Assembly (NCBI GenBank): GCA_035601835.1 | Contig: DATNNM010000010.1 | Location: 62,001-126,000 of the forward strand | DNA length: 64,000 bases | DNA from: Candidatus Tumulicola sp. | GTDB taxonomy: Bacteria > Vulcanimicrobiota > Vulcanimicrobiia > Eremiobacterales > Eremiobacteraceae | Reading direction: 5' to 3' | In this document: positions 44,548-62,927 of the stretch, piece after piece | Numbering within the stretch: the stretch's first letter is position 1 | Layout of the letters: the number at the start of each line of letters is the position of its first letter | The notes under the pieces: generated by a model | What the model saw: the letters and a program-made list of their open reading frames with translations, nothing else | Databases searched by the model: none | Told to the model about the DNA's origin: nothing | Position numbers and translations under genes: made by a program

Positions 44548-44600
44548 GCCGGACTAAAGTCCGGCATACCACATCCGGGGCTAAAGCCCCGGCACTACAT
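44548..44600 (+). repeat. Two palindromic elements in a convergent junction
   Basis: The copy at 44548-44574 has the stem gccggac/gtccggc around TAAA and the tail ataccacat. The copy at 44575-44600 has the stem ccggggc/gccccgg and the tail cactacat. They lie between the aldo/keto reductase and mqnD. Confidence 0.87.
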
Positions 44601-49011: not shown

Positions 49012-49494
49012 TTACGCTCCTTTGGACCTGGTCCGCACGAGTTTCTTCGGGGCGCTGGTGAGCGATTTGCCCTCGAATGCCTCGATTTGGTGCCGGCGTT
49101 TATCCGAGATAGCGACCGACTTGCCGGTGGCGTAGTCGTACATCACCTGCACGGAGTTCACCTCGCATACCAGCTGGCCGGTCACGACGTTGCTGATCTC
49201 GGCCTCGCACAGGAACGACGAGCGGCGCAACTCGGTGATCCGCACGCCCACGAGCAGTTCGTCGCCGAGTTTGGCCGGCGCGTGGTAGCGCGCGGTCACT
49301 TCGGCGAGGACGAAATCGAACTCCGACACATCTTGCAGCTCGCACACCTTCATCCAGTACTCGTTGCGCGCGGTCTCGCAGTAGGTCAAGTACACGGCAT
49401 GGTTCACGTGGCGCATGCCGTCGATGTCGCGGAACGCCACCTTGATCGGACGCGCGAACTTGAAGCGGTTTTCGCGAGGACCCTGGTCGCTCAT
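49012..49494 (-). CDS. Acyl-CoA thioesterase, 4HBT hot-dog fold
   Basis: This 160-residue hot-dog-fold thioesterase has the 4-hydroxybenzoyl-CoA thioesterase-like active-site stretch FRDIDGMRHVNHAVYLTYCETARNEYW, with the catalytic Asp, followed by RYHAPAKLGDELLVGVRI and RSSFLCEAEI. The C-terminal tail is basic (APKKLVRTRSKG). It probably hydrolyses acyl-CoA. Its start overlaps the aminopeptidase stop by four bases (49491-49494). Confidence 0.85.
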   Translation of the reverse strand: MSDQGPRENRFKFARPIKVAFRDIDGMRHVNHAVYLTYCETARNEYWMKVCELQDVSEFDFVLAEVTARYHAPAKLGDELLVGVRITELRRSSFLCEAEISNVVTGQLVCEVNSVQVMYDYATGKSVAISDKRRHQIEAFEGKSLTSAPKKLVRTRSKGA

Positions 49495-51992
49495 GGATTC
49501 CTCGGCGCGCGCGGCGCCTTGCCCTCGATCACCGCGATGGCTTCGAGCGCAGCGCGGTGTTGGAACGAGGTTTTCGCGCTCTGCGCATAGCGCTGAAGGT
49601 ACGGGATGGCCGCGCGATCCCCCAGGCCGGTAAGAGCGCTCACGATCGCCCTATTCGTGCGCGCGTTAGGGTCGCCGAGCAGGCCGCCGAGGAATTGCGT
49701 CACCTGCGCGTTGCCCTTGCCGATCTCCCCAAGCGCGTCGATCGCGGCATTTCGCGTGTCCAGTGGAGCCCCGTAACGCGCATACTGTTCCTCGAGCGGG
49801 ATGACGTCCGCACCCTTGAGCTTTGCGTAACCTCGCAGCGCCGCCGAGGCGATCACTCCCTTGTCGGATGGTTGCTGCAGCGCCTTGGCCAGCACGGCGT
49901 CCGCACCCGCAGCCTTCGAGGCTGCGAGCGACTCGACCGAGTTCGCGATGACGGCGTAGGACGGATCGTACGTGGCGTGCAGATTCAACGCCGCGACCGA
50001 CGAGATGTCGCTGCCGAAGAGAGCCAGCGACTTCGCCGCCGCCGCTCGCACGTGGGCGCTCGGATCGCCCATCGCTTGACGCAGCGCCGAGGCGGCCCGC
50101 GGATCCGGCGCGAATTTCGCAAAGCCCGCCGCCGCGTAGGCGCGGGCGTCGGCCACCGGATCGTGCGCCAGGAACGTCTCGGCCGCAGCGAACCGCTGGA
50201 CATCCGGTTTCGCCGGCGCGATCAGCGCGTCGAACGCATCGAGGCGATCGAACACCGATGGCGCCTTGCGCGCGATGAAGGCCAGCTCGTCGTCGCTGCG
50301 CGGGAAGCGCACCTTCGAAACGATGGTGTGGCCCGGGTCGAAGAGCAGCGCCACCGGTTTGGCCGGCGCGGCGATCGTGAACACCTGACGGCGCTTGTCG
50401 TTTTGGATCAGCGTCGGGTGCGGCGTTCCGTCGCCGTCGAGCAGCGCGATCGTGATCGGCATGACGAACACGGCAGGCGTGTTCCATGCGGTTTTTTGCG
50501 TCTGATCGACCGCCACTCTGATGGTGTTCGTGGTCGCATCATATCTGTACGAGACGCTGTATTCGGGGAAGCCCGCCTTGTACAGCCACTCGATCGTGAA
50601 CCAACCGAGGTCTTTACCCGAGGCTTGCTCCATCGCGGCTTGCCATTGCGCGGTGTCGACGGACTTTTCGCGGTACTGCGTGAGGAACGCCGTCTGCGCC
50701 TTCTGGTAGCTGTCGGTGCCGACCACCGTGCGCAGCATATGCAGCACCAGCGCGCCTTTACCGTACGTCGTGTCGTCTGCCATATCGAACGGATCGCCGT
50801 ACATCTGCGTCACGACCGGCCTGCGGTAGGTCGCATCGTTGCTGAAGTATTCCGCCTGCGTGTTTCGCCGCTCGATGTCGAATCCATCGATGCCGTGCGC
50901 ATGTTCGGCGTACAGCATCGTATAATACTCCGCGTAGCCTTCATTCAGCCAGAACTGGCCCCAATCCGCGCCGGTCACGAGATCGCCCCACCACTGGTGC
51001 GCAAGCTCGTGCGCCAGCAGGCCTTCGCCGTCGGCGTCGAGCTCGCTGCGCCGGTCGTGCAGGGAGCGACTGGTGAGCGTCACCGCTGAGACGTTTTCCA
51101 TCCCGCCGTACAGGAAATTGGTGACGACGGTTTGCGCGAACTTCTCGTAGGGATACGGCACGCCGTTGAAGTCGGAGAAGAACTTGATCATATCCGGAGT
51201 CGCGCGGAACGTGAACGCCGCCTCGGCGATGGCGTCCGCCGGCGCGTCATACGTCACCGGGATCGGGCCGGCGTGGCTGGAGGCCTGGGCGAACGCGCCC
51301 GCGATGATCGAGATGAGATAGGTCGAGTGCGGCACGCTCTCGACCCAATCGAAGGTGGCGGTCCTGCGAGCGCGATCGTGCGTCACCTTGGCCAGCGAAC
51401 CGTTGCTGATGACCACCTGACCCTCGGGGACGGTGATGACCGTTTCGCTTGGGGCCTTGCGGTCGGGGTTATCGTAGGTGGGGAACCAATAGTGGTTGTC
51501 CTCGGGCTCGCCTTGCGACCAGACCTCGCGCGGCAGTCTGGGGTAGAACTTGTCGGGGCCTTCGAAGTACAGACCTTTGATCGGCCGCGCTTGATAGCGC
51601 GTTTCGATCGCGTAGGTCTGACCCGAGACGGCAGCCTGCGGCAGGTAAACGCGCACGTAGTCGGCGTGCGTCTCGTAGCGCAGCGACGAGCCGCCTGCGA
51701 GCGCAACGCGTGTGAATCGCAAGCCGGATGCGTCGAGGTCGATGGAGCGCCCGCCCGCCTGCACCATGCGAATCGTATTCGTGACGTCGCCGTCGACGGA
51801 GCGATTCGCTTCGTCGAGCGTCGCAAGGATTTTCACGTTGACGAGATCGTAGACGTGGGGGCGCGCGACGTGACGATGCGCGCGGCCGGCGGCGAAGAGA
51901 ACGCGGTGGTCGCCGTCAGCGTTCGCGATCGCGGGAAGCGACAATACCGCGCAGAGGATACCACCTACTACGGCCAGACTAAAGTCTGGCAT
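49491..51992 (-). CDS. Secreted M1 family zinc aminopeptidase with C-terminal HEAT-like repeats
   Basis: This protein of about 833 residues has an N-terminal beta domain, then a catalytic domain with the exopeptidase motif GGMEN, the zinc motif HELAHQWWGD (HExxH) and the distal Glu in WLNEGYAEY. A C-terminal helical region (about 640-833) looks like HEAT/armadillo repeats (HVRAAAAKSLALFG, NAAIDALGEIGKG). The signal peptide is VVGGILCAVLSLPAIANA. The start is odd: the ATG at 51992 and the first residues PDFSLA are encoded by a palindromic repeat, and a GTG at 52007, overlapping the previous stop (TAGTG), is an alternative start. It cleaves N-terminal residues from peptides. Confidence 0.9.
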   Translation of the reverse strand: MPDFSLAVVGGILCAVLSLPAIANADGDHRVLFAAGRAHRHVARPHVYDLVNVKILATLDEANRSVDGDVTNTIRMVQAGGRSIDLDASGLRFTRVALAGGSSLRYETHADYVRVYLPQAAVSGQTYAIETRYQARPIKGLYFEGPDKFYPRLPREVWSQGEPEDNHYWFPTYDNPDRKAPSETVITVPEGQVVISNGSLAKVTHDRARRTATFDWVESVPHSTYLISIIAGAFAQASSHAGPIPVTYDAPADAIAEAAFTFRATPDMIKFFSDFNGVPYPYEKFAQTVVTNFLYGGMENVSAVTLTSRSLHDRRSELDADGEGLLAHELAHQWWGDLVTGADWGQFWLNEGYAEYYTMLYAEHAHGIDGFDIERRNTQAEYFSNDATYRRPVVTQMYGDPFDMADDTTYGKGALVLHMLRTVVGTDSYQKAQTAFLTQYREKSVDTAQWQAAMEQASGKDLGWFTIEWLYKAGFPEYSVSYRYDATTNTIRVAVDQTQKTAWNTPAVFVMPITIALLDGDGTPHPTLIQNDKRRQVFTIAAPAKPVALLFDPGHTIVSKVRFPRSDDELAFIARKAPSVFDRLDAFDALIAPAKPDVQRFAAAETFLAHDPVADARAYAAAGFAKFAPDPRAASALRQAMGDPSAHVRAAAAKSLALFGSDISSVAALNLHATYDPSYAVIANSVESLAASKAAGADAVLAKALQQPSDKGVIASAALRGYAKLKGADVIPLEEQYARYGAPLDTRNAAIDALGEIGKGNAQVTQFLGGLLGDPNARTNRAIVSALTGLGDRAAIPYLQRYAQSAKTSFQHRAALEAIAVIEGKAPRAPRNP

Positions 51993-51999
51993 ACCACAT
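51973..51999 (+). repeat. Palindromic element overlapping the aminopeptidase start
   Basis: The stem gccagac/gtctggc surrounds TAAA, with the tail ataccacat; it is 27 bases long, a multiple of three. It is identical to the copy inside the glucosidase gene at 61225. Its minus strand encodes the first residues of the aminopeptidase. Confidence 0.9.
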
Positions 52000-52006
52000 G
52001 CTTTCA

Positions 52007-52354
52007 CTAGTCTTTCACGACCGCTGGACGGCGCGCCGCCAAGCGCATGAAAACGCCTAGGTACGTCCCGACGAACGCCGGCACGAACGCCAGCAGCGGC
52101 GACAAAAGGTAGTCGGGGGTCAGCGGCCTGGTCCCATCCATGAGCCGCGACGTGATCTGCGCGATGGGCACCCAAACGCCGAGAATGGCGGCCCAGCGCC
52201 ATGCCCTGTTCGGCTGCGCGAAGCCCAGGATGAAGCCGAAGACGAGCAACAACGACACGGTGACCTGCACCTCAGCGGTGTTCAGATCGACGTATGCCGC
52301 TATGAAACCGAATACGATGGCAAGCGCAGACAGCCATACGGTGAGCGTCCGCAT
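52007..52354 (-). CDS. Small integral membrane protein
   Basis: This 115-residue protein has about four hydrophobic segments (LTVWLSALAIVFGFIAAYVD, VSLLLVFGFILGFA, WAAILGVWVPIAQI, LLAFVPAFVGTYLGVFM). I do not recognise a family. The ATG at 52354 was chosen because it begins the first membrane segment; the frame back to 52501 is a shadow of the RidA gene. Its stop overlaps the possible GTG start of the aminopeptidase gene by one base. Confidence 0.65.
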   Translation of the reverse strand: MRTLTVWLSALAIVFGFIAAYVDLNTAEVQVTVSLLLVFGFILGFAQPNRAWRWAAILGVWVPIAQITSRLMDGTRPLTPDYLLSPLLAFVPAFVGTYLGVFMRLAARRPAVVKD

Positions 52355-52385
52355 TGCCGCCCCATTCCATGCGCGCCGGGGACAG

Positions 52386-52778
52386 TCATTCAGCGCCGAC
52401 GACGGCGTCGACCTCGATCTCCACCAGCATCGCCGGATCCAGAAGCTGACGCACCTCGACCATCGTGGATGCGGGCCGGACATCGCGGAAGTACTCGGCA
52501 TGCGCTTCCCCGATGCGCCGCCATTGTGAGATGTCCGTCACGAACATGCGGGTGCGCACCACGTCGTTCATGCTCGCGCCTGCAGCCTCGAGCGCCCGGC
52601 GGATCTTCTCGAGCGCGTGTGAAGCTTGTGCGCGGGCGTCGGCGCCGCCCACGACGTCGCCGTTCTCGTCGCTGGCCGTCGTGCCCGCGACGAAGACGTG
52701 CGCGCCGGCGCGCACCGCGCGCGAATAGCCGACCACCGATTCCCACGGCGAGCCGCTCGACACTCGATCGCGTTTCAA
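52386..52778 (-). CDS. RidA/YjgF/YER057c/UK114 family protein
   Basis: This 130-residue protein is of the trimeric RidA family: VGYSRAVRAGAHVFVAGTTASDENG, the helix ALEKIRRALEAAGASMNDVVRTRMFVTDI with the conserved Arg of the imine site, and STMVEVRQLLDPAMLVEIEVDAVV. Members hydrolyse reactive enamines/imines or act as related ketide enzymes. The start is TTG, with AAGGAGG eight bases upstream, so it is well supported. It is divergent from the glucan phosphorylase gene. Confidence 0.87.
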   Translation of the reverse strand: MKRDRVSSGSPWESVVGYSRAVRAGAHVFVAGTTASDENGDVVGGADARAQASHALEKIRRALEAAGASMNDVVRTRMFVTDISQWRRIGEAHAEYFRDVRPASTMVEVRQLLDPAMLVEIEVDAVVGAE

Positions 52779-60177: not shown

Positions 60178-60194
60178 GCGAATAATATTGGATG

Positions 60195-60220
60195 AACGGA
60201 GCTAAAGGTCCGTTGCTGCA
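60195..60220 (+). repeat. Degenerate palindromic element in the divergent glgC/glucosidase gap
   Basis: The arms aacggagc and ggtccgtt surround TAAA with mismatches in the stem; the tail reads gctgc rather than gctac. It is the only copy seen in a divergent gap. Confidence 0.65.
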
Positions 60221-60239
60221 ACGTCCGAAAGGCGGCGCG

Positions 60240-62927
<2,688 letters not shown>

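Follow-up and report, generated by a model that had tools for sequence, protein, structure and literature searches.

A REP family in frame in predicted export signals of a Candidatus Tumulicola genome, including the front of an M1 aminopeptidase gene

At the front of a gene for a secreted M1 aminopeptidase, a short palindrome contributes an ATG in the reading frame of the enzyme, raising the question of whether the element created the start of the protein or entered an export signal that already existed. The gene lies on the minus strand of the window, the whole 64,000-nucleotide stretch of Candidatus Tumulicola sp. DNA that was analyzed, and its open reading frame (ORF) contains domains PF17900 and PF01433 plus HEAT repeats. 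Positions 51973 to 51999 form a perfect palindrome with 8-bp arms that reads atGTGGTATGCCAGACTTTAGTCTGGC on the minus strand, and the minus strand from 52009 to 51973 reads TAGTGAAAGC ATGTGGTATGCCAGACTTTAGTCTGGC, i.e., TAG-TG AAA GC and then ATGTGGTATGCCAGACTTTAGTCTGGC. RNA folding of the 25-nt core gave -10.9 kcal/mol (z score, -3.6). A preliminary description of the locus had stated that the minus strand of the palindrome supplies an in-frame ATG and the residues PDFSLA and that the stop of the previous gene overlaps (TAGTG) with a GTG located 15 nt upstream of the element's ATG. Reading the sequence confirmed both statements: the ATG (minus strand, 51992 to 51990) is in the M1 frame and gives MPDFSLA, and the GTG is in the same frame. 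The features considered here are as follows.

51973 to 51997, minus strand: REP element of family F2, with tag GTGG, spacer TAT, stem GCCAGACT, loop TT, and stem AGTCTGGC
51998 to 51999, minus strand: AT dinucleotide ahead of the REP tag
51990 to 51992, minus strand: in-frame ATG within the element, probably an internal Met codon
52005 to 52007, minus strand: GTG, most likely the start codon of the M1 aminopeptidase
52007 to 52009, minus strand: TAG, stop of the upstream ORF, whose G is common to TAG and GTG
49491 to 52007, minus strand: secreted peptidase M1 with C-terminal HEAT repeats, 838 aa from the GTG
51918 to 52007, minus strand: predicted signal peptide (crude rule and sequence reading), MKA[CGMPDFSLA]VVGGILCAVLSLPAIANA, in which the bracketed part is REP encoded
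52010 to 52501, minus strand: small membrane-protein ORF upstream, whose stop overlaps the M1 GTG
44548 to 44572, minus strand: further F2 REP copy, GTGGTATGCCGGACTTTAGTCCGGC
61225 to 61249, minus strand: F2 REP copy identical to the M1 copy, inside a plus-strand 911-aa ORF, where it encodes SQTKVWHTT

The window holds two identical 27-nt copies of the element, that at 51973 to 51999 included, and two variants, while a shuffled window had 0 copies even when up to 8 mismatches were allowed. Across the whole 2.57-Mb genome, a draft that is 98% complete, the F2 core GTGGTATGCCRGACTTTAGTCYGGC was found in 57 copies at up to 3 mismatches (38 exact-tail copies), and a backward-read control of the core had 0 matches genome-wide. 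The recurrence of F2 is not due to chance. The core was not found in 60 relatives searched with up to 2 mismatches. F2 consists of a GTAG-like tag, a spacer, a perfect stem, and a 2-nt loop; the tag is GTGG in nearly all copies genome-wide, and T stands ahead of it in all 28 near-exact sampled copies, with A ahead of that T in 75%. Three sister families are built on the same plan, F1 (GTAGTGCCGGGGCTTTAGCCCCGG), F3 (GTAGCCACGGACCTTTAGGTCCGTG), and F4 (GTAGCGTTCCGAGCGAAGCTCGGA). A sample of 1.264 Mb, about half of the genome (stretches totaling 1.2 Mb plus the window), contained 145 copies of F1, 36 of F2, 40 of F3, and 65 of F4 and 0 matches to the reversed consensus sequences. REPs of all families located no more than 60 bp upstream of gene starts had the same orientation as the gene in 62 cases and the opposite orientation in 23 (61 sampled stretches).

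The features of F2 were compared with those of known mobile palindromes. Like the GTAG-type REPs that together with RAYT genes form REPtrons, F2 is a multicopy palindrome of 20 to 40 nt with a GTAG-like tag at one end, a short perfect stem, and a 2-nt loop, and GTAG-20 REPs of O. terrae are mostly GTGG tagged (Di Nocera et al. 2013, PMC3733652). As in those systems (PMC3733652), this genome contains many copies, several families, intragenic copies, which are already known, and a REP-flanked RAYT. One PF01797 (Y1 transposase) gene was found, which matches the NCBIfam equivalog for REP-associated tyrosine transposases (RAYTs), NF047646, at 109.5 bits (cutoff, 80). This gene (L039 1280-2000, G000:C16) is flanked by three copies of F1 and none of F2, the nearest F2 copy being about 1.4 kb away, so the same-family flanking of GTAG-type REPs is absent for F2, which could be mobilized in trans or by a RAYT that has since been lost. 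F2 also resembles the perfect-palindrome REPs of group 3 TnpA-REP in Stenotrophomonas and Marinomonas (PMC8266576) in its perfect stem, minimal loop, and tetranucleotide 5' of the stem; however, (A)T precedes F2 rather than the reported CT or CA cleavage dinucleotides, and it is a sister GTAG family, not F2, that flanks the RAYT here. By these sequence features, the element at 51973 to 51999 is classified as a REP.

Of the 36 F2 copies in the 1.264-Mb sample, 8, or 7 loci at 35 sites once a dimer was merged, lay in signal peptides according to a crude, home-made rule applied to home-made gene calls. M1 fails the strict charge rule, and counting it gives 8 of 35 sites. Random positions scored as signal peptide by the same rule at a rate of 2.3% (n = 6000), against which the binomial P value is 1.2e-5 (7/35) or 1.0e-6 (8/35). 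The sister families F1, F3, and F4 gave 0/250 with one F4 copy in the L158 signal set aside (Fisher test against F2, 2.4e-7); all these P values are descriptive only, since the hypothesis arose from the data tested. Leaving aside the second unit of the dimer in L162, the F2 copies in signal peptides were all in the coding orientation. Within the sampled half of the genome, at least eight secreted proteins that are unrelated to one another, M1 included, thus have F2 in frame in their predicted export signals, which agrees with the earlier proposal that the palindrome lies within an export signal. This concentration of coding-strand copies in sequence that encodes signal peptides distinguishes F2 from the GTAG-type REPs of PMC3733652, and no such clustering of REPs in signal peptides was described in the open-license papers that we searched.

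The individual genes show how the element is read. Three have the REP in the same frame as M1 (CGMPDFS), after MVKSK in L155, MKKRH in L160, and MKHVLVCFLLV in L167, and in each a Lys-bearing start with ATG lies upstream of the REP. The other F2 frame (VVCRTLVRL) occurs after MKAVASRTD, where the REP gives no ATG. Without the REP, the signal peptides of L155, L160, L165, and L167 still pass the crude rule; those of L158 (S13 carboxypeptidase) and L162 (polysaccharide deacetylase) owe their hydrophobic core to the REPs and fail the rule without them. The S13 signal peptide consists largely of two adjacent REPs, F4 and then F2 (L158 431-482), in a region shared with a divergent gene. A permease, L071, is an additional N-terminal F2 case from outside the 1.264-Mb sample.

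Orthologues were compared in relatives. In genome G004, from another genus, the L155 orthologue (69% identical) keeps the start MVKS and overlaps the upstream gene in the same way. G004 has its own REP, GGAGCGGTCGARNTYNYTCGACCG, in 184 copies, and one of these, belonging to a REP family different from F2 (L200, L199), has a position in the L155 orthologue that matches that of F2 to within 2 nt. Because the orthologue has its own REP there, the comparison shows the start and not an empty site; the coincidence may reflect independent insertion at a hot spot or replacement of one REP by another. The deacetylase orthologue has another G004 REP in its signal peptide, oppositely oriented, and 3 of the 37 G004 copies read were in predicted signal peptides. 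Orthologues of the L165 lipoprotein had no palindrome at that place in seven relatives.

We consider it probable that a mobile GTGG-tagged REP lengthened an export signal that M1 already had, with the GTG still serving as the start and the ATG as an internal Met codon. F2 would be a nonautonomous palindrome that moves as a single strand, presumably through the action of a RAYT, and a copy would have inserted 11 nt downstream of a preexisting GTG that overlaps the upstream stop. Such an insertion would have lengthened the existing signal peptide by nine in-frame codons (CGMPDFSLA), placed after its first residues and ahead of its hydrophobic core. It may have been accepted because the n-region and core tolerate changes in length and sequence, and the extra peptide would be removed on export, which presumably continues. 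By the same route, F2 would have reached the export signals of seven or more further genes in the half of the genome that was sampled.

Insertions of F2 could instead have been positively selected, not merely tolerated, with F2 acting as a mobile hydrophobic cassette whose coding strand helps to build signal peptides. One orientation is common to all seven sampled loci (to eight when M1 is counted), the sister families are not enriched, and the L158 and L162 cores are supplied by REPs and fail the crude rule once these are removed. We nevertheless regard this reading as unlikely, since the signal peptides of M1, L155, L160, L165, and L167 pass without the REP and an orientation bias is also seen in REPs upstream of starts. 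In addition, when 27-nt insertions were simulated in 237 signal-peptide genes, F2 in the sense orientation showed no higher tolerance than the other families (retention of 0.49 versus 0.24 to 0.60 for F1, F3, and F4 in the sense orientation and 0.64 for random 27-mers). This simulation also led us to reject a uniquely tolerated peptide as the cause of the F2 bias, which may stem from how targets are chosen, from recent bursts, or from selection for the peptide that F2 encodes.

The reading in which a REP lengthened an existing signal predicts a particular start codon, and the preliminary description had proposed that the element creates the start of M1. Under that proposal, translation from the REP ATG (MPDFSLAVVGG..) would replace or supplement initiation at the GTG. 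ATG is usually the stronger start codon, and its computed RNA opening energy is slightly lower (11.7 versus 12.9 kcal/mol for the GTG; 17.9 with the insert removed). These energies do not separate the two starts and give no sign that the insert represses; as they are alike, occlusion of the ATG by the hairpin was dropped as evidence. Against a start at the REP ATG, its G is the first base to pair in the hairpin. The n-region MPDFS has no Lys or Arg and one Asp, and M1 read from the REP ATG fails the crude rule even with the charge requirement relaxed. From the GTG with the REP in place, the n-region has a net charge of 0 and fails the strict rule; with the 27 nt taken out, the GTG opens MKAVVGGILCAVLSLPAIANA, which passes. 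Three other genes of the four in this frame have an upstream ATG with Lys, and that of L155 is conserved in another genus. From the REP-free signal peptide, the failure of the ATG start, and the conserved L155 start, initiation of M1 at the GTG is therefore judged most likely, and a start made by the REP appears improbable.

Comparison of the M1 N terminus with homologues points the same way. The orthologues in G003 and G010 (54 and 53% identical) do not share PDFSLA; their openings, of the MKIR.. type, read MKIRVIILAAACISASVATSAYA (MKIRVIILAAAC..), with an ordinary signal peptide and no insert. A contig scan for M1 homologues found distant relatives only, and because no M1 relative is closer than 54% identity, an empty M1 site is not directly visible. 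The suggestion that the GTG is the ancestral start holds as a probability: Lys2 is kept as in the orthologues (ATG AAA).

Start donation as a general rule was rejected. The ACAD, HMG-CoA lyase, SDR, LigA, and CobA-like genes have a normal start downstream of the REP, and these REPs were counted as noncoding because they lie just upstream of that start. Elsewhere, start donation may occur: for a lipoprotein-like signal peptide at L180:745, no in-frame start other than the GTG of a REP tag was found within 25 codons. It is very unlikely that the M1 element is a regulatory hairpin for posttranscriptional or translational-coupling control with incidental coding content: the stem folds stably at a stop-start overlap, and many REPs at the 5' ends of ORFs were suggested to be control elements rather than coding (Di Nocera 2013, PMC3733652), but this copy lies in frame downstream of the likely start, its family recurs in other signal peptides, and computed accessibility is no lower with the REP present.

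F2 and F1 also occur in frame in the interiors of protein genes. In purD (L072 1109-2467), an in-frame F2+F1 dimer, AGLKSGIPHPGLKPRHY, falls in a gap relative to solved homologues (PDB 2yw2). In-frame insertion into unrelated protein genes with absence from homologues, as in purD and M1, recalls the Rickettsia palindromic elements (Ogata et al. 2000, 2002, as summarized in PMC10969869 and PMC3733652), although those are described there as up to about 150 bp long and in diverse proteins, whereas the units here are 25 to 27 nt and lie in cleaved export signals. The different sequence and the length of 25 to 27 nt rule out the M1 element as a Rickettsia palindromic element proper. In the 911-aa ORF of the window (60192 to 62927), the listed ATG falls in an F3 REP at 60195 to 60219, and the real start may therefore be the later MNASAEHH. 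N-terminal REP copies are treated in PMC3733652 as often being misannotated starts; we argue here for in-frame insertion.

One tentative possibility is that a REP family serves as a mobile supply of export-signal sequence, repeatedly lengthening and sometimes supplying (L158, L162, and L180) the start or hydrophobic core of a signal peptide, with genera using different REP families, once within 2 nt in the same gene. Most descriptions of REPs place them outside genes, and copies at N termini have been dismissed as misannotated starts. The conserved upstream starts and orthologue comparisons indicate real in-frame insertion of REPs into signal peptides, by one family and at far above the random rate. 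Annotators should be aware that an ATG within a REP may mimic a start. Signal peptides would thus be a measurable landing zone for mobile palindromes, offering a testable route by which export signals may change or arise.
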